From Muribaculaceae bacterium (GTDB lineage Bacteria > Bacteroidota > Bacteroidia > Bacteroidales > Muribaculaceae): a DNA stretch of 55,673 bases. The translations under genes and the position numbers were made by a program. Where the stretch lies: assembly GCA_022509065.1 (NCBI GenBank), contig JAFLTY010000013.1, positions 1 through 55,673 on the forward strand, written 5' to 3'. Shown here piece by piece: positions 8,699 through 41,066 of this stretch (within the stretch, counting starts at the first letter, position 1; the number at the start of each line of letters is the position of its first letter). The notes beneath the pieces are model-generated. The model saw only the letters and a program-made list of their open reading frames with translations, was not told the origin of the DNA and searched no databases.

Positions 8699-9901
8699 TT
8701 ATTGTCCTTCGGAAATTGTTACCGCACGGTCGAGAGCGACGTATTTAACACCCATGTCGCAAAGGTTGCCGTTGTTTACTGTAACGGAAATCTGCGATTG
8801 TGGCACTCCGAAACGGAAGAGTTGTTTTGCGACCCCGTTGACACGATTGTGACGCAGTCGGACGTTAAATTGCTCAGATCCGGTGTAATTATCAGCCCAA
8901 CCGGTCAGAACGTAGTGCTTGTCGGGATTAGCCTTCATGACATTTGCAATGGCTTGAAGCACATTTAAATCGCGGCTTGTCAGACTGTAAACATTGATGG
9001 GGTAATAGATGGTTGCGAGGGGACCAGGTTCTGCTTTTTCGACGATAACTTCAGCAGGATGCGCCAGAGCGTCTTTAAGCTGAGCCTCAAGGTCTGAGAT
9101 ACGACCTTCGGCAGCTTCGAGACGAGCTTTTATGGCATCGCAATCTTCCGGTTCGGGACAGACGGGTATGAGAGGTGTACTCCACTGACGTTTGTCGAAA
9201 AGATAAGTAATTGCGAAATAAGCCTGAACATCGCCGGCCATTTTGCGTGTAATCTGCGAAGCATCTCGGTGAGCGGACATGTAATCGTAACGTACGTCGA
9301 GTGATAAGGCGACTTGGCGGCTGACATTGAACGAGTTGATAAGTCCGATGCGTCCTGCAACTATATTATCGTGTTGATTGAACCATTTGGTATCTGCCGC
9401 ATCGCGTATGAAAGAGAAATAACCGCCTATGCCGGCATATAACATAGCGTTGTAGACTCGGGCAGGTCGATAACCGCACCACCAGTTGGTGAGGTTGAGC
9501 ATAGCATCGAACACGGGACCGATTTCATTGAATTTTTGTTTATAGAAGCCGTTCACAGTGGAAGTCGCCGGAACGTTGCCATTGAATTGACCGTCACTGA
9601 GGCCTTTTATCTCGAGCCAACTTGCACCGAGCCGTAATCCAAGCACAGGTGAGAACCACTTACCGACATATATTGCCCCACCCGGAGCTACCCTATCAAG
9701 TAGTTTTCGGTTGCTGTCAAACTGAGAGAAGTAGACACCCCCGCCACCTTCGATTGTTAAAAACCAGTTATCCTTGAATTTATTGAAGAGGTACCCTTGT
9801 GAAGAATCGTGTACAAAAGCAGCCTCTTTGGCTCCCTGTGCAGTCGAAGAGAAGGTAATCACGAGAGTCAAAATAAGGAGTAATGTAAGGTTTTTCTTCA
9901 T
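8699..9901 (-). CDS. OmpA-family outer membrane protein
   Basis: 400 residues: signal peptide 1-24, predicted barrel about 35-245, a short charged helix (RISDLEAQLKDAL, about 260-285), then an OmpA-like C-terminal domain. That domain has VLTGWADNYTG, a FNVRLRHNRVNGV segment and a terminal LDRAVTI. It is the second OmpA protein in the window and is clearly diverged from the one at 229-1392. In particular, its peptidoglycan-binding part has NVRLRHNR where canonical copies have LSxxRA. It stands alone between promoter-like and intergenic sequence. The expected role is outer membrane-peptidoglycan linkage. Confidence 0.9.
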   Translation of the reverse strand: MKKNLTLLLILTLVITFSSTAQGAKEAAFVHDSSQGYLFNKFKDNWFLTIEGGGGVYFSQFDSNRKLLDRVAPGGAIYVGKWFSPVLGLRLGASWLEIKGLSDGQFNGNVPATSTVNGFYKQKFNEIGPVFDAMLNLTNWWCGYRPARVYNAMLYAGIGGYFSFIRDAADTKWFNQHDNIVAGRIGLINSFNVSRQVALSLDVRYDYMSAHRDASQITRKMAGDVQAYFAITYLFDKRQWSTPLIPVCPEPEDCDAIKARLEAAEGRISDLEAQLKDALAHPAEVIVEKAEPGPLATIYYPINVYSLTSRDLNVLQAIANVMKANPDKHYVLTGWADNYTGSEQFNVRLRHNRVNGVAKQLFRFGVPQSQISVTVNNGNLCDMGVKYVALDRAVTISEGQ

Positions 9902-9951
9902 GTAAAACGATGGGTAATAGCGAATTAAATCGCATGGTGAAAGAGCCGTAA

Positions 9952-9959
9952 CAAAGTTA
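9952..9959 (-). promoter_or_regulatory. -7 promoter element of the second OmpA gene
   Basis: Minus-strand TAACTTTG (TAnnTTTG) lies 51 bp upstream of the ATG at 9901, the same distance as in the neighbouring BIG2 gene. No clear -33 element. Confidence 0.5.
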
Positions 9960-10000
9960 TGGCTCGAATTTGGGTGCTAAGTTACACATTTTTTGGCAAT

Positions 10001-10723
10001 TTACAATGATCTGGGGCCAAAAATAGCAGACCCTATTCTTATATGCGATGCACCGTGGTTGATTGCTAAAGGATAATCGTCGGACATCCCCATGGATAGG
10101 ATGTTGAATTCGGTTAGATCGTTAGCAATGGTGCCTATCTCGACAAACAGAGCCTGTAGCAAAGCAAAGTCGGCATCGATTCGCGAAATGTCATCGGTGT
10201 TTGTCGCCATTCCCATCAAACCGCGTATTCGGGTTGCGTGTAATGCTTTGTAAGCGCCACTGCGAAAAAAATCGAGCAACTCGTCCGGCGACCAGCCGAA
10301 TTTGGTATCTTCAGCTGCAACATGCACCTGCATGAGGACATCGGTGATGACATTCTTTTTGAGGGAAATGTCGTCAATGAGGTCGAGTAGACGCTGTGAG
10401 TCAACACTTTCTATGAGAGCGACATGCCCAACAAGTTGTTTTACCTTGTTGGTCTGGAGATGACCTATGAAATGCCACGCGATATTAGCCGGGAGAGTTT
10501 GAGCCTTATCGAGAAGTTCGGCCACCCTGCTCTCGCCAAACACCCTTTGTCCGGCATTGTAAGCTTCAAGGACAGCGTCAGCCGGATGAAACTTTGACAC
10601 TGCGACAAGTTGCACGGACGGAGGTAGTGAGGACTTGATGCGGTTCAGATTATCGGCGATGGTCTCGAACCGGCTCTTAGATTGTTTAGTCTTCAAATTT
10701 GTCAAGTTTGACCTTGAAGACAT
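10001..10723 (-). CDS. YggS/PROSC-family pyridoxal phosphate homeostasis protein
   Basis: 240 residues, the usual size for this single-domain TIM-barrel family. It binds PLP and buffers cellular vitamin B6 without a known catalytic reaction. The PLP-binding lysine is in LVAVSKFHP (Lys44). Other landmarks are FGESRVAEL, WHFIGHLQTNK, and the C-terminal LSMGMSDDYPLAI and RIGSAIFG. The ATG at 10723 lies inside the upstream DUF4494 gene and overlaps its end by 38 bp. Homologues usually begin nearer the RFETIADNL segment, so a TTG start a few codons downstream is possible. The overlap suggests translational coupling with the DUF4494 gene. Confidence 0.93.
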   Translation of the reverse strand: MSSRSNLTNLKTKQSKSRFETIADNLNRIKSSLPPSVQLVAVSKFHPADAVLEAYNAGQRVFGESRVAELLDKAQTLPANIAWHFIGHLQTNKVKQLVGHVALIESVDSQRLLDLIDDISLKKNVITDVLMQVHVAAEDTKFGWSPDELLDFFRSGAYKALHATRIRGLMGMATNTDDISRIDADFALLQALFVEIGTIANDLTEFNILSMGMSDDYPLAINHGASHIRIGSAIFGPRSL

Positions 10724-30873: not shown

Positions 30874-32208
30874 GTGAAACACACATTGTTACTTCCCATG
30901 GCTATCTTACTGCCTGTAATAGCCGTATCAGCCGAGAATACCGACACATGCGACATCGCATCAGGTAAGAAACTGCGTCTTATCCGCACCACTCCGGAGG
31001 TTGCGGCCATTGTCAACGAGACGCGCCCCCATGAGGCGAAGGCAATACCCGCGCCTAAGTTTGCCATTACTTCGGATAATAATAATTTTATATTGACTAT
31101 CGGCGGTCAGATTAATGTAATCGCCGGTGGTGACATTGGTAACAACCTATACAATCAGTCGGGTGCTGGCATCAGTTTCGTCACCAGCCAGATTCCCGTT
31201 CCGGCAGTCAAGGGACAAAAGGGAGATTTCTATATAACGCCCCTTGACGGATCGGTTGATATGCAAGTTGTCGGTTTCGCCAATACCCCCAACGCTGTTA
31301 CAGGTTATTTGAAAGTAGGAACCAACGGAGTCAATACCAATGTGGTTCTACAGCGTGCCTATATATCTTGGCGCGGACTGACCGGAGGTATGAAACTGAC
31401 TTTGTTTCAGGACGATTATGCCTGTCAGCCGCCCACAATCGACCCCGAGGGCCCCAGTGGATGTATATCCAACGTGGCTTACGAATTGAGCTATAAATCC
31501 AAATCATACAGCGGTTTCCGCTTTGCCTTAGGCGTGGATGTTCCCACCTATTATACCTCTAACGGTTATTATCGCGGTCACGACTATGCCGAGTATGATA
31601 ACAAACAAGTCAGCACAACCAATTACGACCAGATTATCCCCGACATTCCTGCTTGGGTGGAATATTCCTTCTCTTCATGGAACCGTATACGTCTGTCGGG
31701 AGTGTTGCGTAACTTCCGTTATAAAGACAATGTGGCAGGGAAAGACCGCACGCTGACTGCATGGGGAGCCATGCTGTCAGGCAACATACAGCCCGCGTCG
31801 AAATGGATACTTTATTATCAGGCAGCCTACGGTAAAGGTATAGGTAGCTACATTCAGGATATCGCCGGCCACACCTACTCGTTCATTCCCGACGATGCCA
31901 ATCCCGGTCGCATGTCAGCCAGCCCAATGTTAGGAGCAAATATCGGCGTCACATTCAATCCTACCAGCAAACTGCAGTTTAACGCCATGTTCAGCGAAGC
32001 GCGCATTTGGGGTGTTAGCGATTATGCAAACGCAGGGGCAGAAGCCGACAACTACAAATATGCCCTGTATGGAGCGGTAAATTGTTTCTACAATATAAAC
32101 TCTTTCCTTCAGTTGGGTGTTGAATATTTATATGGTCACCGCCAGACATGGAATATGGGAGGCGCCAATGACAGTCGCGTTCAGGCTCAGTTGTCGTTTA
32201 CTTTCTGA
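30874..32208 (+). CDS. Outer-membrane porin-like protein (DcaP-like)
   Basis: 444 residues with a GTG start (30874). Signal peptide about 1-20 (ending VSA). The mature part has many short amphipathic strands, the opening NNFILTIGGQINV, and the C-terminal strand VQAQLSFTF ending in Phe. All point to a 16- to 18-strand porin. Similarity to DcaP/trimeric porins is suggested by the GYLKVGTNG and RAYISWRGLTGGMKLTLFQD blocks, but I cannot confirm it. It opens the cluster with an MFS transporter and two phospholipase B-like hydrolases, so it probably lets their substrate cross the outer membrane. TonB-dependent features are absent. Confidence 0.8.
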   Translation: MKHTLLLPMAILLPVIAVSAENTDTCDIASGKKLRLIRTTPEVAAIVNETRPHEAKAIPAPKFAITSDNNNFILTIGGQINVIAGGDIGNNLYNQSGAGISFVTSQIPVPAVKGQKGDFYITPLDGSVDMQVVGFANTPNAVTGYLKVGTNGVNTNVVLQRAYISWRGLTGGMKLTLFQDDYACQPPTIDPEGPSGCISNVAYELSYKSKSYSGFRFALGVDVPTYYTSNGYYRGHDYAEYDNKQVSTTNYDQIIPDIPAWVEYSFSSWNRIRLSGVLRNFRYKDNVAGKDRTLTAWGAMLSGNIQPASKWILYYQAAYGKGIGSYIQDIAGHTYSFIPDDANPGRMSASPMLGANIGVTFNPTSKLQFNAMFSEARIWGVSDYANAGAEADNYKYALYGAVNCFYNINSFLQLGVEYLYGHRQTWNMGGANDSRVQAQLSFTF

Positions 32209-32290
32209 AATTCAAGGCAGAACATAGCATAAAAGGTTAAAGCATTTAGATATCCTAAAATAATCATCACTTAAAACACACACCACCGCT

Positions 32291-33688
32291 ATGAAAAATA
32301 TTTTTAAAGGCATACAATCGGGCTACGGCACCAACGTGCTTCCCCTATGGGCCGTTTTCAATCTCTATGTCATTTTCATCTGTACATCGATACCGGGTCT
32401 GGCCATCTCGCCCATTATGGGTAAAATTACAGAGATTTTCCCCGGCACATCTCCTCTTGCGTCACAAATGCTTGAAATCGGGCCTAACCTTGCCGCTATC
32501 CCCTTTGTATTTCTTGGAGGTTGGATTGGCACTCGTTTCAACAACAACAAACTGACAGCTTGGACCTGTCTGTTCTTCAGCCTTTGCAGCGTATGTTTCT
32601 TCCTGATACCCTCAGGCAACTCGCACGGAATGCTTTTCCTCATCATACTTAGCTTCCTTATCGGTATCGCTGCAGGTGTACTCAGCCCTCTTTCGACAGC
32701 GTTTATCGCCGATATGTTCGGTGGCAAGAAAAGAACAGCACAGTATGGTTACACATCAGCTACCCTTAACCTTGTTCTGATGGGATGTACCATCGCCACA
32801 GGTTACCTTGCAAAAATCGACTGGCACTTGCCTTTCCTCATCTATCTTCTCCCCATCATACCTTTGTTCTTCGCAAAGAAGTTCAAAAAATACATAACTG
32901 ACCCCACTCAGATTCGTAAGACTGACGCCGCTGCCAACAACGGTCAAAAGGTGCACTACAAATTCTCTCAACAGGTCAATATCGGAATGTTGGTTCGTTA
33001 CTGTATCTTCTATTTCGTCATCACTTTCGTGATAGCTGCCATCAGCCTTTATCTGCCTTTCCGTTACACTGATTCTTCAACAGCCGGCGACCTCACCTCG
33101 ATACTTTTCTTTGGTATCATGCTTTCCGGTTATCTTCTCAACTACGTTTTGAGAATTCTCAAAAAAGGTGTTGCCATTTGGTGTATGATTGCCATTGCAG
33201 GGGGATTCTTCCTTATGTCCATCACCAGCGAAGTAGTCCTTGTCGGAGTAGGCATACTTATCGCCACATTCTTCTATGGTATAGCTCAGCCTTACTACTA
33301 CGACCGTTTGTCCATGGCCTCGAGCCGTATCGCCCTTACTCTTACATTGGCATGGTTCGCATCTATGGATTCAATAGGCAACGTTGTTGCAGCTCCTGTA
33401 ATCGATGTCATTGCCAAGATATTCCATCGTTCGACAACCACCGACCCCAATTTGGCTTTCTGGCTCTGCACAGCCCTTTCGATTGTAGGTCTCGTCATAG
33501 TTATCATCCGCAAAATCATTGTTGGTGTCAAAGACCATGAAGAAGTCGAGAAAACCAAAGCCACCCTTATGGATGTCACCAAACCGGCTCTCAACCCCGC
33601 CGGTCATGCAGCAGCCGCATCCGAAGCCGTCTCATCGACAACCCCTGCAACAACAGCACAAGCCTCAACAACAGCTTCGAAACAATAA
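32291..33688 (+). CDS. MFS transporter
   Basis: 465 residues with 12 predicted membrane helices. The N-half starts GTNVLPLWAVFNLY, and PLSTAFIADMFGGKKRTAQYG forms the conserved MFS loop. The last roughly 45 residues are a low-complexity Ala/Thr/Ser/Pro tail (ASEAVSSTTPATTAQAST) of unknown purpose, predicted cytoplasmic. Between the porin (82 bp upstream) and the first phospholipase B-like gene (50 bp downstream), it likely imports their common substrate. The family alone does not give specificity; the sequence is not the FucP-like type found at 23363. Confidence 0.85.
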   Translation: MKNIFKGIQSGYGTNVLPLWAVFNLYVIFICTSIPGLAISPIMGKITEIFPGTSPLASQMLEIGPNLAAIPFVFLGGWIGTRFNNNKLTAWTCLFFSLCSVCFFLIPSGNSHGMLFLIILSFLIGIAAGVLSPLSTAFIADMFGGKKRTAQYGYTSATLNLVLMGCTIATGYLAKIDWHLPFLIYLLPIIPLFFAKKFKKYITDPTQIRKTDAAANNGQKVHYKFSQQVNIGMLVRYCIFYFVITFVIAAISLYLPFRYTDSSTAGDLTSILFFGIMLSGYLLNYVLRILKKGVAIWCMIAIAGGFFLMSITSEVVLVGVGILIATFFYGIAQPYYYDRLSMASSRIALTLTLAWFASMDSIGNVVAAPVIDVIAKIFHRSTTTDPNLAFWLCTALSIVGLVIVIIRKIIVGVKDHEEVEKTKATLMDVTKPALNPAGHAAAASEAVSSTTPATTAQASTTASKQ

Positions 33689-33738
33689 ATATATTTCTCT
33701 CTTTATTAATTATCTAACTACTAAAAGTTTATTACACA

Positions 33739-35400
33739 ATGTACACGCCGAACTTGAAAAACACAGAACCGCGAGAATACGTACTTAACGAGTACACCCG
33801 CGCCTTCGCACAGTGCGTCGACAACAACTGGAACTATGCCGTTTATGCACAGGATCCCTCGGTAAGTATTTACCAAAATGAATATAACGCAGGTTATGTT
33901 CAAGGTAAAGTCCAGACAAATAAAGTAATCAAGGCCACTCGTAACAGCACATGGCGCTGGTATGTCCTTGACGAAGGTCCTGTACCCGATTCTGTAACCC
34001 CTCCTGCAGGTCTCCCCGAACTGGCTAACAAAGCGCTGGTAGAAAACTATAATTATCTGACAGCATGGGCCGAGAAGAACGCGTCGGATGTAAAGACGCA
34101 GAACATTATTCGCCTGATGTTCCGTATGCTTGGCATATATGATGGCGCCGCTGACAAGGAGGCTAAGAAAAACGTCACTTTCGAAGACCTTAAATTGTCA
34201 AATATGGATGCAACCGACAGTGAACTCCATGACGGCGACCAGCCTCTTACCTTTATTGATGTTTATTTCATCAACGCGCAGATGGATATTTGGGACGCCT
34301 TGTCAAAAGAGATAGCGGCTGCTTTCGAAGAACGTTTGAAGAATGATCATCCCGAAATAGCCTCAAAAGTGCGTCATGATGATTGTCACGAGCTGAAGAT
34401 TCACCTGGGTCACTGCTCGGGCTTTGTAAAGATGCTCGATAACGGCGAGATAGTTTGGACTCACACCTCGTGGTGCTGTCTGATGGCTATGACTTGTGCC
34501 ATGACATATGTCATCGGTGAAGACTTCCTCACACAGAACAGCTTCTGTCCCGGTCAGTTCGGATCGAACACCGACTTTGGATTTAATGGACACGGTATCG
34601 GTTTCAACGAAACGACAGAAACATATTTTTACATTGAACCCAAAATCGAGGGTATATGGATGACATGGCGTGCCGCAGCTGCCGAAATGTTCTCGAAATC
34701 GATTGAAGAGTTCTATGACTACTTGAAGATAGACAACACCAGTACCTATCTTAACACATACATGGTTGTTGACGCATATCGCAACACTTTCGGAGTCATT
34801 GATATGAGTTATGCCCGTTTCGCCCTGTTGCGCTGCGATGGCCAGACAGTAGACGTGTCCGACTCGACAGGTTACAAACCTACTTTCCTCGACTGGGACA
34901 ACCACATGGTATCGCCAACCCATGTTCTTGGATGTAACGTACCTGTATACAAACGTATTGGCCGTGACCTTATGTTTATTGACGGAGCGCCCAAACGTCG
35001 TTACCAGCTGTACCGTAACATAGCCAATGTTGATGGTATAGAAAGTGCCAAAGCTTTGGTGACCTATAACGAATCGCTCGAACCTATATCGATAGCCGGC
35101 CGTTGGGATCTTAATTACGGCACATCGGAATTCCTCCGCTATCAACCTCATGGCGCCATTGATGCCAAGACTTTCGGAACAGCCGAAATTCGCGAGGTTC
35201 TCGGTTCGCTGTCAATGCAACCTGACATTAACGGCACAAAGACCAGCTTCTGGATGAAATTCGGTTCGCCATATATTGACGGAGCACCCTTCGTATGGAG
35301 CAATTCGAAATTCGCCCAGTTCAAACAGCCCGAAGAAGTCGACGGAATACCCGATGCAATAGACGGCCGTTGGAACAGAGTTAAAATGTTTATGAAATAA
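33739..35400 (+). CDS. Phospholipase B-like Ntn hydrolase, paralogue 1
   Basis: 553 residues. Family PF04916 (phospholipase B-like, PLBD1/PLBD2 of lysosomes) is indicated by NEYNAGYVQG near residue 47, the nucleophile region HCSGFVKML (Cys226) followed by VWTHTSWCC, NTYMVVDA, the RWDLN motif, HGAIDAKTF and the C-terminal APFVWSNSKFA. In this family the cysteine is exposed by autocatalytic cleavage and acts as an N-terminal nucleophile on amide or ester bonds. Unlike eukaryotic members it has no signal peptide, so it should be cytoplasmic. It is followed 63 bp later by a close paralogue. Substrate is unknown: phospholipid, N-acyl amino acid or another acyl compound. A penicillin-acylase-like C45 peptidase is the alternative, but the C-terminal blocks favour PLB-like. 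Confidence 0.82.
   Translation: MYTPNLKNTEPREYVLNEYTRAFAQCVDNNWNYAVYAQDPSVSIYQNEYNAGYVQGKVQTNKVIKATRNSTWRWYVLDEGPVPDSVTPPAGLPELANKALVENYNYLTAWAEKNASDVKTQNIIRLMFRMLGIYDGAADKEAKKNVTFEDLKLSNMDATDSELHDGDQPLTFIDVYFINAQMDIWDALSKEIAAAFEERLKNDHPEIASKVRHDDCHELKIHLGHCSGFVKMLDNGEIVWTHTSWCCLMAMTCAMTYVIGEDFLTQNSFCPGQFGSNTDFGFNGHGIGFNETTETYFYIEPKIEGIWMTWRAAAAEMFSKSIEEFYDYLKIDNTSTYLNTYMVVDAYRNTFGVIDMSYARFALLRCDGQTVDVSDSTGYKPTFLDWDNHMVSPTHVLGCNVPVYKRIGRDLMFIDGAPKRRYQLYRNIANVDGIESAKALVTYNESLEPISIAGRWDLNYGTSEFLRYQPHGAIDAKTFGTAEIREVLGSLSMQPDINGTKTSFWMKFGSPYIDGAPFVWSNSKFAQFKQPEEVDGIPDAIDGRWNRVKMFMK
33801..33935 (+). repeat. DNA block duplicated at the N-terminus of the paralogues (copy 1)
   Basis: This stretch encoding the segment around QCVDNNWNYA to GYVQGKVQT is closely matched at 35526-35660, with mostly third-base changes. 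It records the gene duplication. Confidence 0.75.
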
Positions 35401-35463
35401 CTCATGGTCGCGTAATATCACATTAAACATTTATCATTAAACATTTTAGAAAGTCACAATACT

Positions 35464-37089
35464 ATGTATACGCCAAAATTTAAAAACACCGAAGCCACCC
35501 AATATACCCTTGATGAATACACTACCGGCTTCGCACAGTGCGTTGACAACAACTGGAACTACGCAATCTATGCCCAGAACCCCAACGTAAGCATTTACCA
35601 GAACGAATACAACGCCGGCTATGTCCAGGGTAAGGTTCAGACAGGGGATGTTATCCGCGCCACACGTAACAACTCTTGGAGTAACTTCCTTATTGGCTCG
35701 ACACCTCAGGACGCCTTGTCTATCGAAGTCAAGCCGGAATATCTCCAAGCCTGCGGAGCAGCCGTCATCCAGAACTACAACTACACATATAACTATGTGG
35801 CAGGTCGCACCGACGATACGAAAGTGCAGATGATTATCCGTCTGATGTTCCGTCAACTTGGCATCTATGACGGAGCAGCCGGTAACGAGGCCAAAAAGAA
35901 CGTTACTATCAACGACCTCGATCTTAACGCTTATCCCGAAAATCAAAGGGTACTTGCCTATGGCGATGCCCCCTTGACATTGCTCGATGTAATATTCATC
36001 AACTCGCAGTATGATTTGTTTGACTGCGTAGGCGACCAAATCGGTCTCGTGATGGGTTATGGAACTGCTCACAAAATAACGTCTAAAGACAAACCCGACC
36101 ACTGTACCGCATTTACAAAGATAATGCCTGACGGAAACGTCTTCTGGACACACAACTCGTGGTGTTGCTTCTGGGCTCAGTCTTGCGCCGTTACCTATTG
36201 CATCGGTGATGATTTTGTTACCCAAAACGCCAATTGCCAGGGTCAGTTCGGCTCGAATACCGACTTTGGATTCAATGGCAACGGTATCGGTTTCAACGAA
36301 ACCACGCACGTTGACCTTTACGACAAGACAAAAATCGATGGTATCTGGCTGACATATCGCTCGGCAGCTGCCGAACAATTCGCACACACTATAGATGAGT
36401 TCTACGAAATCATCAGCATGGACAATACAGGCTCTTACCTGAACGGTTATCATCTTGTTGACGCCAATACCGGTGAGATAGGTCTTGTAGAGATGAGTTA
36501 CAACCGTTTCGTGCTCTTCAAGTCAGACAGCAAGACTCTCACCCTCAAAGATTCCACAGGTTATGAACCCACACGTTTGGACTATGACCACCACTTGATT
36601 TCGCCTACACACATTTTCGGTGTTAACCAGCCTATATATTGGTGGGTAGGTTACGAACTCGAAAGCATGAACCTTCGACCGATGCGTCGTAACCAGCTTT
36701 GGGAACGTATTGACACAGTCACCGATATCGAATCGGCAAAAGATCTTATCACTTACACCGAAGACCGCGAACCTCTGTCAATCTACGGTCGCTGGGATCT
36801 TAACTACGGTACAACCGAAATGCCGCGTTGCCGTCCCGATGGGTCAATCGACGCAAAGGCTTTCTCACGCGACCTTATTAAAGAGGTATTGTCTAATCTG
36901 AGCCGTAAACCTTCGATCAACGGCGAAAAGACAAGTTTCTGGATGAAATTCGGTACGGCACATATCCGTCAGACACCGTTCATTTGGAGTCAGTCGCGTT
37001 TCGCCGATATGAAACAGGACGAAAGCGTTGATTTTGTACCGGATGCACTGGACGGACGCTGGAACCGCGTAAAAATGTTCATGGAATAA
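35464..37089 (+). CDS. Phospholipase B-like Ntn hydrolase, paralogue 2
   Basis: 541 residues and clearly homologous to the preceding gene: near-identical N-terminus (QCVDNNWNYA, SIYQNEYNAGYVQGKVQT), the nearly invariant FGSNTDFGFN(H/N)GIGFNETT block, and the same ending GRWNRVKMFM. The predicted nucleophile is Cys214 in DHCTAFTKI, followed by FWTHNSWCC. The region between 80 and 210 differs most, consistent with a shifted substrate pocket or a heteromeric pairing. It also lacks a signal peptide. It is the last gene of the cluster, before a terminator pair at 37116-37188. The substrate cannot be deduced; having two copies in one operon suggests two related substrates or a two-subunit enzyme. 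Confidence 0.82.
   Translation: MYTPKFKNTEATQYTLDEYTTGFAQCVDNNWNYAIYAQNPNVSIYQNEYNAGYVQGKVQTGDVIRATRNNSWSNFLIGSTPQDALSIEVKPEYLQACGAAVIQNYNYTYNYVAGRTDDTKVQMIIRLMFRQLGIYDGAAGNEAKKNVTINDLDLNAYPENQRVLAYGDAPLTLLDVIFINSQYDLFDCVGDQIGLVMGYGTAHKITSKDKPDHCTAFTKIMPDGNVFWTHNSWCCFWAQSCAVTYCIGDDFVTQNANCQGQFGSNTDFGFNGNGIGFNETTHVDLYDKTKIDGIWLTYRSAAAEQFAHTIDEFYEIISMDNTGSYLNGYHLVDANTGEIGLVEMSYNRFVLFKSDSKTLTLKDSTGYEPTRLDYDHHLISPTHIFGVNQPIYWWVGYELESMNLRPMRRNQLWERIDTVTDIESAKDLITYTEDREPLSIYGRWDLNYGTTEMPRCRPDGSIDAKAFSRDLIKEVLSNLSRKPSINGEKTSFWMKFGTAHIRQTPFIWSQSRFADMKQDESVDFVPDALDGRWNRVKMFME
35526..35660 (+). repeat. DNA block duplicated at the N-terminus of the paralogues (copy 2)
   Basis: Second copy of the block at 33801-33935. 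The rest of the two genes is alignable mainly at the protein level. Confidence 0.75.
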
Positions 37090-37115
37090 GCTTTGTTGTT
37101 ATAAAATAGATTTAT

Positions 37116-37188
37116 GAGGGGTGGCTCATTTTTGCGAGTCACCCCTCGTGACATAAAAAGAGACGCACCGTCCGATGCGCCTCTTTTT
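37116..37188. terminator. Double terminator between the PLB-like cluster and the amidase gene
   Basis: Two hairpins in tandem. GAGGGGTGGCTC/GAGTCACCCCTC (37116-37147) has 12 pairs. AAAAAGAG...CTCTTTTT with inner CGCA/TGCG (37155-37188) has A and T tracts for both directions. They insulate the converging plus and minus transcripts. Confidence 0.9.
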
Positions 37189-37256
37189 GTAGTATGATTA
37201 GGCTTAGGGTTCTCGTTTGTGTTTTAAGCTCGAACCCGGAACCTGTTTGTCAGAAC

Positions 37257-40200
37257 TTATTTAACGACAACTTTGGTAGCTTTGCCGTTAACAACTTTCA
37301 CGTAAACGCCGGGAACCATGTTTTCGCCCGAAACCAGTACACCGTTGAGGTTGTAGAATACGGGAGTACCTTCTGTAACATCGGTTACGATGCCGTTAAC
37401 GCCGGTTTCAGAAGTGTTGACAGAACCGGTGAACGAAACGACGTGACCTGCGTCGCGGAGGCCGTATACATGGTAACCACCGTTAGAGCGGCTGTAGATG
37501 TGGAGGTTGCCGGCTGCGTCGAAACGAGCGTGTGCCCAGCTTTCGGTAGCTGTCGGGATGGAGTAAGCCAAAGTAGCTTTGGGAGTGTTGCCGTCCCATT
37601 CTACATCCAAAACGGCGATGCTGCCTGCAAGGGGACAAGCAAGGGTCTTACCGTCGGTCGTGATGGCTATAGCACCAACGTTATTGTCGATACCGTCAAC
37701 GTTAGAGCTTTTCATTACCGGTGTAACATTGCCTTCCGCATCCATTTCGAAGTATGTGAACGAAGGATTGGCATCAATGTTGTTGCCGGCTCCACGAACC
37801 TGTGCTGCCCAGAAACCCTCGCCATAGCCGAGCAGGTCGACGTTGGTGTTAGCAAGCAAGCTTGCGTAGCCTAGTTCTACGGGAGCTTCGGTAATCAGTT
37901 CTTCGTTGCCAAGGTCATAGCGTACGATAGTATTTGTTGTGCCTGCGTGGTCTTCCGAGAATGTGAAGACTTTCTGGTTTTCACCTTCGCCAACTACGCA
38001 AACGCCCGATACGCCACCGCCTACATTTACACCATTGTACATGTAAGCGCCACTCGCTGTGATTTCACCTGCATAGAGGCTATAGGGCTCTTCTTTCTGC
38101 AACGGGTCAACTACTACGAGACCGCAAGCGGCGTCACCCCAAGCAGCAGCGATAACCTTACCGTTACGTTCGTGACCGCGGAACGGGTTGGACTGGTTGG
38201 TTGTGTTAACCTGCCAGAGTTCGTGCTGTTTCCATACTTTGTCACCAACTTTTACACCTGCGGGGTTGTAGATGTCAACACCATTGTTGAAACTGTTGAG
38301 AACTACTGTGAAGCCGTAAGATGCCTGTTTGGGATCGGTGATGGTTACAACACCGCCACGACCTGTAAGACCGTTGTTTTCGCTAAAGATTTCACCTGCC
38401 GCGGGACTTCCCTTGGTTGTGAAGTTGATAGCGAAGTCGTATGTTGCATCGGCTTCGATGTCGGTAGCGGGAACAGTGAATGTGTGTTCGCCGGTGGTTG
38501 CTTCGAGAGCGTAGGTAAGAGCTTCGCCTTCGGCGGGAGTGAGAACCAGTTCTGCTTCCTGACCGTCAGCTGTAACTTCGTAGTTGAATACCAAGTCGCC
38601 GCCTTCGCTGAGGCGTGTTTCAACGTTGTAAACCATACCGGCTTTGTAAACGGGCTGTGCTACGTTGTGTGTGGTGAACTTGGTGAGTTTGTTGTCACAA
38701 AGAACGTATAGGTTAAGCCAAGCATCGGTGTAAACTTCGTTTACTTTGTCATAGCTTGTGCCTGTTTCACCGGCAGTGGCGATGCTTGCAAACTCAGTAC
38801 CTTCGATAGAAGTGTTGCTTGTCGAAACCACTTTGGCTTTGTTAATATTTTCGCTAAGGTCAATAAGTTTCACGCCTGTCAGCTGACCTTCTTCAACATC
38901 GGGAACAACGAGATAGCTTGCTCCGGCAAACTTAAAGGCTGAAACTGCGCCGGGTGTCAAAGCCATAACTTCGTTACCGAGGCAGTTGGGAGCCAGACCG
39001 TCGCTTACAGCCATGGGGAATTCTGCCTGATAGTCGGGACCAACGAACATGACATTGTTTGTATTGAAGGGCGAAACGACCATACGGTAACCTTCGCCAA
39101 AACCGGGATTAGTACCACCGGCAATTTCGCAGATATTATTGGGCGTTGTATAGTCGCCTGCACTTGCCTGTACACCGTTTGCAACTACGATAGAGGTAGT
39201 ACGGAGAGTGTAGTAGGGAGCTGTGATGGTGGGTTGCGAAACAAGGAGCAGACCATCTACAGAAGTACCGGTATATGCGAATGTACCACCTACATACGAA
39301 CGATACCAACGACCTGTTCCATTGTGGCTCAACCATTGTTCGGGTTTTCCTGTGGGAAGACCGTTTTCATCGTTGCCCCATTTGTAAACATAGAGGGTTC
39401 CGCGAGGTTCTTTTGTTCCGTCAGGAAGATCCTCAAGATAGCTATTGTCGTACTGGTTCTTGGTTTGACATGTAGCGAGCAGATAACCGTCGTCGGTAAC
39501 CTGGATATCGGCTACGTCCTGAATTGTACCGTATGTGCCTTCGGTCGATACTTCGGCAACAACAGCCTTGTTAGCAAGGTCGTAAACCAATACTGTGGGT
39601 ACGGGTTTGTGTTCGGGAACCTGAGCCAGTTCGGGCAGACGGTCGATAGCGAGAATGTACATGAGACCCTTGCGGATAACGGTACGGCGAACAATCTTGC
39701 CTTCGAGAGCCGGAATTTCAACTTCGTAATCGGTTGCGAAAGTATATTCGCTGGCGGGAGCCATACCGGAGATTGTGGCGGCGGGGTCAGGATAGGTTTC
39801 GAAAATTTCTTTCGGAGGTTCGTAACCTACTGCTTCGAGAGCGAATTTGGGATATGTGTCAGCAGCAGCTTTTACAGTCACTGTCTGAATATTGTCCAGC
39901 TCCTTATAGTCGGGATGTGTAACAACGATGGTGTATTCGCCGGGTTCAACGCCGTCAAATACGAAAGCGCCGTTATAGTTTTCGTCGGTTGTATAGGTGG
40001 CGACAACGTCGTTACCTTTCTTCAGAGTGACTGTGGCACCGTTGATGGGCTTGTAGATGTCGTCCGAAGTGGGAGCGGGTTTGTACCATTGGTCTGTGAA
40101 TTTTTCGTGCAGGTCGCGAACGATACCGTAGATTGTACCGGTGCTTTCCTTGGTAAGACCGAAATAGTCGGCGATACCGCGGGCGTAAGCGTTACCTTCA

Positions 40201-41066
40201 ACACGGCATACGTCCCAGTTCATTGCACGGTGACGTGCGGGCTGATATGTGTGGAAGTAACCTTCTACGAGGAAACCGGGGGCAGTGTGTTTAAGTACGC
40301 CAAGGTAACCTTTGCAGGGTGTGCCATCGCTACGTGTGCTGGTTGAACTGTCATTGTAGAAGTTGATGTCACCACGAAGGTTCTTTGAGGTCTTATAGCT
40401 TGACCAATATGCATGGGGGTTAGCTATACCATAGCCCCAGCAAGCATCGGCCATTGCACGGCTTAAGGTCTGATGGTCGAGAGTCACGCCGGTTTCTTCC
40501 TTAGGAGTATCGTAACCGCGATAGAGATAAAGGGGATAGTTCACACCGTCGCCATCTTGATTAGCATTCGAGTGGATGGAGATGAACATATCGAAGTTGT
40601 TGGCCTGAACCTCTTCACAAATTTCGGAAAGGTTGCGGTTGAAGGCGTAAATATCTTCGGGAGTAGAGCTGCCGAGCTGGTTTTCGGTACCGTTGTCATC
40701 GTGATACGGGCCGTTCTTAACGCGCGACATAACGATGTTCTGCTCGAGGTCGCGGGCTGCGCCAACGTTTGCGGGATCGGGATTGTCCTGATTTTTAGTG
40801 CGGTCGAAAGGCACACCGTACTGGATAAGGCGTTCGAGAACGGCGAAACCTTTTTCGAGGTCGGTGTTCGATTCGAAGAACGAACAAGTATCGGTGTTTG
40901 TACGGCTATACGGGCCGGGGTGGTTAACAAGGTTACAGGGACGGTCGTTGGGAGTCCAGCCACCGTGTCCGGGATTGATGTAAATACGCAGTTCGTCAGC
41001 GGTCTTTGCGTTGACGGTCATTGCTGCAGCGACCGCCATAGCTGATAGAAGTATTATCTTTTTCAT
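37257..41066 (-). CDS. Giant secreted N-acetylmuramoyl-L-alanine amidase with propeller-like regions
   Basis: 1269 residues. Signal peptide about 1-20. Amidase_3 domain about 25-315: zinc-binding His34 in NPGHGG, a Glu in the following ESNTDLEKG stretch and His in ISIHSNANQ, then FLVEGYFH; the reaction is cleavage of the muramoyl-alanine bond of peptidoglycan. A CarboxypepD_reg-like beta domain follows (about 318-415; GTIYGIVRD to GEYTIVVTHPDY). Two long WD/propeller-like regions (about 430-800 and 930-1180) flank an Ig-like segment. The end carries VFYNLNGVLV and VPGVYVKVVNG, the shared C-terminal sorting-like motif. Single-domain amidases are usually 200-450 residues, so the size is unusual. 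It follows the small propeller gene by 19 bp. Cell-surface remodelling or attack on other cells is possible. Confidence 0.88.
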   Translation of the reverse strand: MKKIILLSAMAVAAAMTVNAKTADELRIYINPGHGGWTPNDRPCNLVNHPGPYSRTNTDTCSFFESNTDLEKGFAVLERLIQYGVPFDRTKNQDNPDPANVGAARDLEQNIVMSRVKNGPYHDDNGTENQLGSSTPEDIYAFNRNLSEICEEVQANNFDMFISIHSNANQDGDGVNYPLYLYRGYDTPKEETGVTLDHQTLSRAMADACWGYGIANPHAYWSSYKTSKNLRGDINFYNDSSTSTRSDGTPCKGYLGVLKHTAPGFLVEGYFHTYQPARHRAMNWDVCRVEGNAYARGIADYFGLTKESTGTIYGIVRDLHEKFTDQWYKPAPTSDDIYKPINGATVTLKKGNDVVATYTTDENYNGAFVFDGVEPGEYTIVVTHPDYKELDNIQTVTVKAAADTYPKFALEAVGYEPPKEIFETYPDPAATISGMAPASEYTFATDYEVEIPALEGKIVRRTVIRKGLMYILAIDRLPELAQVPEHKPVPTVLVYDLANKAVVAEVSTEGTYGTIQDVADIQVTDDGYLLATCQTKNQYDNSYLEDLPDGTKEPRGTLYVYKWGNDENGLPTGKPEQWLSHNGTGRWYRSYVGGTFAYTGTSVDGLLLVSQPTITAPYYTLRTTSIVVANGVQASAGDYTTPNNICEIAGGTNPGFGEGYRMVVSPFNTNNVMFVGPDYQAEFPMAVSDGLAPNCLGNEVMALTPGAVSAFKFAGASYLVVPDVEEGQLTGVKLIDLSENINKAKVVSTSNTSIEGTEFASIATAGETGTSYDKVNEVYTDAWLNLYVLCDNKLTKFTTHNVAQPVYKAGMVYNVETRLSEGGDLVFNYEVTADGQEAELVLTPAEGEALTYALEATTGEHTFTVPATDIEADATYDFAINFTTKGSPAAGEIFSENNGLTGRGGVVTITDPKQASYGFTVVLNSFNNGVDIYNPAGVKVGDKVWKQHELWQVNTTNQSNPFRGHERNGKVIAAAWGDAACGLVVVDPLQKEEPYSLYAGEITASGAYMYNGVNVGGGVSGVCVVGEGENQKVFTFSEDHAGTTNTIVRYDLGNEELITEAPVELGYASLLANTNVDLLGYGEGFWAAQVRGAGNNIDANPSFTYFEMDAEGNVTPVMKSSNVDGIDNNVGAIAITTDGKTLACPLAGSIAVLDVEWDGNTPKATLAYSIPTATESWAHARFDAAGNLHIYSRSNGGYHVYGLRDAGHVVSFTGSVNTSETGVNGIVTDVTEGTPVFYNLNGVLVSGENMVPGVYVKVVNGKATKVVVK

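Follow-up and report, generated by a model that had tools for sequence, protein, structure and literature searches.

A conserved cassette of a porin, an MFS carrier and twin phospholipase B-like hydrolases in some Bacteroidales, and its possible role in the uptake and cleavage of small amides

What does a member of the Muribaculaceae do with two phospholipase B-like proteins encoded side by side, directly behind a porin and a carrier of the major facilitator superfamily (MFS)? The question is raised by a 55,673-nucleotide stretch of contig JAFLTY010000013.1 (assembly GCA_022509065.1, Muribaculaceae bacterium), the whole of which is called the window below. An earlier note on this DNA described four consecutive plus-strand genes separated by gaps of 82, 50 and 63 bp, and the open reading frame coordinates agree with it. 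Some Bacteroidales carry these genes as a conserved porin-MFS-twin hydrolase cassette, whose probable role is to import a small amide-linked compound and cleave it inside the cell. The features of the locus are as follows.

30874-32208, plus strand: DcaP-like outer-membrane porin of 444 aa, with a GTG start and a signal-like hydrophobic N-terminus
32291-33688, plus strand: MFS carrier of 465 aa (PF07690)
33739-35400, plus strand: PLBA, a PF04916 N-terminal nucleophile (Ntn) hydrolase without a signal peptide, candidate nucleophile Cys226
35464-37089, plus strand: PLBB, a PF04916 Ntn hydrolase and tandem paralogue of PLBA, candidate nucleophile Cys214
37112-37193, plus strand: two hairpins 3' of PLBB, the second being a candidate bidirectional terminator

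A scan of GTDB contigs with one protein, which covers close relatives only, gave 35 stretches, 23 relatives and 20 loci; neighbouring genes were sought among frames of at least 90 aa within BLAST limits. Of the 20 loci, 19 contain both hydrolase genes, A (PLBA) and B (PLBB), though incompletely in L022 and L025, and the twentieth contig (L026) starts inside B. The gap between A and B was 8–112 bp in the 12 loci measured. An MFS gene, whose product is 43–74% identical to that of the window, adjoins A in all 17 loci with room for it, and the porin gene adjoins the MFS gene in 14 of 15 (partial in L012 and L025). Outside the cassette, four gene clusters were common to loci, each to two of them, and three of the four come from the near-identical pair L012/L013. 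Since the outer neighbours almost all differ, the cassette occupies many different places, and the gene order kept in such surroundings puts the arrangement beyond chance.

In the family, PF04916 was detected in three of 198 genomes, all from one of the 30 genera, and MFS matches at E 1e-50 were found in the same three. Six of the 49 genomes of the genus carry PF04916. The MFS carrier was found at E 1e-50 in eight, namely the six PF04916 carriers (at least 62% identity) and two genomes with paralogues of 33–34% identity. When at least 62% identity is required, the carrier is present in 6/6 PF04916-positive and 0/43 other genomes of the genus (Fisher p 7e-8, a value that overstates independence because the genomes are related). 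Porin and MFS genes thus do go with the hydrolases in relatives; their absence is what the earlier note would have counted as a refutation.

A further partner, overlooked by that note, is MFS2, a second, divergent MFS gene located upstream of the porin gene (of the MFS gene in L023) in 10 of the 11 loci with room. At an identity of at least 67%, MFS2 occurs in 5 of 6 PF04916 carriers and 1 of 43 other genomes (G596; p 2e-5). The MFS2 of the window genome is on contig C3 and is 71% identical to that of L007. Among the genomes of the 20 loci, 11 contain MFS2 with at least 62% identity, seven have a best match of 46–51%, and two (G629 and G643) have neither. The MFS2 proteins of L015, L023 and L024 belong to a second subclade, 46–47% identical to the L007 protein, which also includes unlinked genes from two PF04916-negative genomes. 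Three MFS2 copies (62–72% identity) were seen in G644, the genome of L026.

The hydrolases are indeed phospholipase B-like, as had been proposed: PLBA and PLBB, which are 54% identical, score 71 and 48.3 bits against PF04916 (cut-off 27), and the PLBA model matches Ntn hydrolases structurally. In this comparison, which rests on the PLBA model (PLBB was not folded), the closest structure is PLBD2, followed by isopenicillin N acyltransferase, NAAA and acid ceramidase, and the match to bile salt hydrolases is far weaker than those to PLBD2, NAAA or acid ceramidase. According to an excerpt of PMC9140057, NAAA and acid ceramidase hydrolyze fatty-acid amides. A search of solved structures with the single PLBA sequence gave chance matches only, and with the A1 profile it gave PLBD1 (4bwc, E 2.3e-4). 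The C45 acyltransferase/hydrolase model NF040521 reached 30.4 bits with PLBB (cut-off 85) and did not match PLBA within E 0.001; the C59 bile salt hydrolase model PF02275 matched neither PLBA nor PLBB within E 1.

The positions of the candidate nucleophiles, Cys226 in PLBA and Cys214 in PLBB, agree with the earlier note, and both are internal, in contrast to the cysteine at residue 2 in C59. Both duplicate copies keep the catalytic residues: the counterparts of the PLBD2 active-site Cys, His, Trp, Asn and Arg are invariant in all 38 A and B rows, the PLBB equivalents of the last four being His230, Trp233, Asn388 and Arg408/409. Cys, His and Trp were placed via profile alignment to 4bwc, and Asn and Arg via profile alignment to other bacterial members and also by what we take to be the PLBD2 sequence. 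The active-site residues of PLBD2 are as named in an excerpt of PMC2739207. PLBA and PLBB come closest to the PF04916/MEROPS C95 family (PLBD1, PLBD2; p67), with a score over the cut-off, a PLBA fold nearest to PLBD2 and a central cysteine accompanied by His, Trp, Asn and Arg. They differ from it in forming a tandem pair next to a porin and an MFS carrier, in the residue following the nucleophile (Thr in 22 rows and Ser in 16 of the 38), and in four additional invariant cysteines, Cys26, Cys246, Cys247 and Cys253, which would suit a reducing compartment. They also differ in having no signal sequence, a point made in the earlier note: a hydrophobic N-terminus is absent from both, in-frame stops precede the respective starts by 8 and 17 codons, and the 15-residue hydropathy mean in the N-terminal region reaches at most 0.73 in the 38 rows. 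These sequence features support a predicted cytoplasmic location of PLBA and PLBB. The PF04916 assignment was kept, because secretion is a trait of the known lysosomal members and not of the fold.

In the phylum, PF04916 was found in 18 of 395 genomes, the window's own included, and the other 17 genomes hold 22 PF04916 places, of which 19 were fetched and three were not. In these 19 of 22 places outside the cassette, neither the cassette porin nor the MFS carrier had a match at E 1e-3. Thirteen of the 19 proteins measure about 460–495 aa, and all 13 have a signal-like hydrophobic N-terminal stretch (hydropathy 1.74 or more), which the cassette proteins lack. These relatives belong to the same family (99.2% profile probability, with Cys, His and Asn aligned), but the cassette proteins are only 20–23% identical to L061. 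The alignments do not include the remaining six proteins, of 1048–1131 aa (L066:5120-8269 and similar sizes in L068, L070, L072, L074 and L075); L066, the only long one scanned, has a match to the carbohydrate-binding module CBM_4_9 and a peptidase M1 match below the cut-off.

A quick tree separated A (19 rows) from B (19 rows) with supports of 92 and only 54 and set the 13 others apart (100), which suggests, without proving it, that the A/B duplication predates the sampled species. Recent transfer from a eukaryote was rejected on match scores: the other Bacteroidota members match PLBD2 with 58.3 bits, compared with 23.3 bits for the PLBD1 match of the cassette proteins, and the latter therefore look like a divergent branch. 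A mobile element was likewise rejected, as PLBB had no match in sets of 72,556 plasmid and 50,697 phage records. None of the 31 matches of the A1 pattern in viral contigs was confirmed, and PHROG gave no row for PLBA, PLBB or the porin. The G+C content of the cassette is 46.8%, and that of the window is 46.4%.

The MFS carrier matches PF07690 (5e-26, 91.9 bits, cut-off 33.4). No solved structure matched it at E 0.01, and the NCBIfam subfamily models gave weak rows only, all below cut-off. The cassette carriers form one clade (support 100) in an MFS tree built by a quick method, with group labels preset by best identity and long frames trimmed to their last 520 residues. The porin-like barrel of the earlier note is consistent with the hydrophobic N-terminus and with DcaP as the best solved match by both sequence and structure, the barrel model being closest to 6eus (14–15% identity in structural alignments). 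In PMC12338516, DcaP porins are described as trimers with an N-terminal coiled coil, and Acinetobacter is reported to require DcaP3 to grow on di- and tricarboxylic acids; by analogy, this role hints at a small anionic substrate for the cassette porin.

Paralogues of the MFS carrier accompany amide hydrolases of other families. Glutaminase-MFS-asparaginase cassettes were found in five loci of the genus (L082, L168, L171, L173 and L174), including a copy in the window's own genome (L082:3473-6915, G000:C78); in L174, the glutaminase gene is truncated by the contig start, with two in-frame stops reported for the locus. They are similar to the cassette of the window in that a related MFS gene lies between two amide hydrolase genes, with a divergent porin paralogue adjacent in L168 and L173. 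However, the hydrolase families are unrelated, and their MFS proteins are 27–30% identical to the window carrier. At E 1e-35, 7 of 28 MFS places in the genus, a total that includes cassette MFS2 copies, are within 3 kb of a glutaminase gene, five of them in the cassettes just named. Glutaminase, permease-like and MFS genes stand in a row at L175:6175-11548 and L176:6045-10104 (the L175 permease and a pyridoxal-dependent decarboxylase were named by Pfam, the L176 permease by eye), and this row resembles a glutamate-dependent acid-resistance operon plus an MFS gene. A stress regulon of Bacteroides thetaiotaomicron that includes glutaminase, glutamate decarboxylase, permease and asparaginase is reported in an excerpt of PMC12596196. 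Next to a porin paralogue of the window genome (L130:5914-8260, G000:C56) stands a divergent glutaminase-like gene, whose product is 32% identical to the other glutaminase; the coordinates indicate a porin paralogue beside a glutaminase-like gene in G151 as well. In cassette-carrying G608, a choloylglycine hydrolase-family protein (PF02275; L170:2531-3580, minus strand) is encoded only a few genes away from one of the MFS paralogues.

Since a porin and an MFS carrier stand together with two hydrolases without a signal sequence, uptake followed by internal cleavage is the simplest reading. With confidence a little better than even, we propose that the cassette is an uptake-and-amidase module, in which the porin and the MFS carrier import a compound and PLBA and PLBB cleave it in the cytoplasm. 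A small hydrophilic, probably anionic compound would pass the outer membrane through the porin and the inner membrane by means of the MFS carrier. PLBA and PLBB, each presumably autocleaved before its central cysteine, would then hydrolyze a non-peptide amide bond. MFS2 may export the product or exchange it for the substrate; its role and the direction of transport are inferred. The import of an acylated small molecule, which the earlier note had put forward, would fit this scheme, and our guess is that the substrates are most likely small amides such as N-acyl amino acids or compounds like them. The evidence leans towards an amidase of small hydrophilic compounds rather than a phospholipase, because the structurally related enzymes either break or make amide bonds and the MFS paralogues accompany amide hydrolases. 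More tentatively, and with somewhat less than even confidence, MFS2, the porin, MFS, PLBA and PLBB could constitute an undescribed catabolic five-gene module present in many relatives, the phospholipase B-like fold serving as a cytosolic amidase pair that acts on an N-acyl compound and may be heterodimeric.

Several observations weigh against uptake and cleavage. The MFS carrier may export instead of import. It is 27–34% identical to its paralogues in the genus and sits on a long branch (5.61), which weakens the argument for a shared substrate class. L010 and the window have no MFS2 at the locus, and L023 lacks the porin gene, about 700 bp between MFS2 and MFS leaving no tblastn trace of it. 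The porin, although closest to the Acinetobacter DcaP porins, scores 14.4 bits against the Pfam DcaP model PF19577 (cut-off 27), and its monomer model is of modest confidence, with a low-confidence N-terminus. Moreover, in all 15 other loci with porin relatives of 45–54% identity, there was no match to the cassette MFS carrier, MFS2 or the hydrolases, so the porin may be a general one. For the same reason, porin relatives in other genera were rejected as a clue to the substrate. Their neighbours include two recurring sets, each in four loci and housekeeping-like by eye. At L119:3647-8811, beside a porin relative (8910-10280), uronate-type metabolic genes and an unrelated MFS gene were recognized by eye.

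If the carrier does export, the Ntn proteins could be acyltransferases that make an N-acyl compound, which the MFS carrier pumps out. We regard such a biosynthetic role as unlikely. Besides MFS2, no other gene is common to more than two neighbourhoods, so the cassette contains no gene for acyl activation or for an acyl carrier, and a porin would be unusual in an export pathway.

Rather unlikely, too, is the uptake and deconjugation of conjugated bile acids in the manner of cbsT1-cbsT2-cbsH, by MFS antiport of the conjugated against the free bile acid and an Ntn amidase. Lactobacillus johnsonii, the owner of this operon, is Gram-positive, and the cbs operon has no porin. The two systems share a pair of MFS transporters and an Ntn amidase, and they differ in that the excerpted source describes a single bile salt hydrolase, in place of the PF04916 pair. 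Against bile acids as substrates speak the weak structural match of bile salt hydrolases to PLBA, the internal position of the nucleophile and the lack of a PF02275 row. As the closest working analogue found, the cbs operon nevertheless illustrates how the cassette may function without being a member of that system.

Like the genus glutaminase/asparaginase cassettes, the pair could free ammonia from an imported primary amide for acid resistance or nitrogen supply. The five glutaminase-MFS-asparaginase loci and the two glutaminase/permease-like/MFS rows favour this explanation, but the structural kin act on secondary amides, and simple deamidases are not known to us among Ntn proteins of this type, which makes it improbable. 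A true phospholipase B or lysophospholipase scavenging host or dietary phospholipids is highly improbable, since the activity reported for Dictyostelium and human members in an excerpt of PMC8053727, which together with the family name favours it, is disputed in the same paper, the porin-MFS route suits small hydrophilic solutes, and the enzymes have no signal sequence. The uptake and intracellular cleavage of a small amide is thus the explanation that we prefer.

The spacing of the porin, MFS, PLBA and PLBB genes is consistent with a single transcript. The double terminator reported earlier stood in part. Two strong hairpins do follow PLBB (-28.5 and -15.8 kcal/mol), but a plus-strand T run is present only at the second, a simple terminator scan gave a minus-strand site only at the PLBB 3' end, and terminator-like sites in the window (6 found, 6.2 expected from shuffles) show no excess; nor do promoter-like sites (8 found, 11.0 expected). 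The second hairpin may serve the convergent gene 37257-41066 (minus strand), which encodes a 1269 aa protein that has a carboxypeptidase-regulatory-like domain and, with a score under the cut-off, matches N-acetylmuramoyl-L-alanine amidase. Long antisense open frames opposite PLBA (34363-35151, minus strand) and PLBB (35446-36453, minus strand) are probably an effect of codon usage.

In the cassette, a variant of a known enzyme family appears in surroundings for which our literature searches found no description, and its function is testable. In line with the earlier note's view of an undescribed system, no account of it was found in the open-licence literature, judged by titles and abstract openings among the matches listed. 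The substrates of PLBD1 and PLBD2 are called elusive in an excerpt of a 2022 review (PMC9140057), and the phospholipase or amidase nature of the family is called open in that of PMC8053727. A bacterial cassette in which two family members are linked to a porin and a carrier of their own could allow genetics and metabolomics to settle the substrate question, and the five-gene module, if true, would open the substrate class of PLBD1 and PLBD2 to genetic study. For the bacteria themselves, the cassette would indicate an uncharacterized compound that is taken up or released by some Muribaculaceae and their kin.
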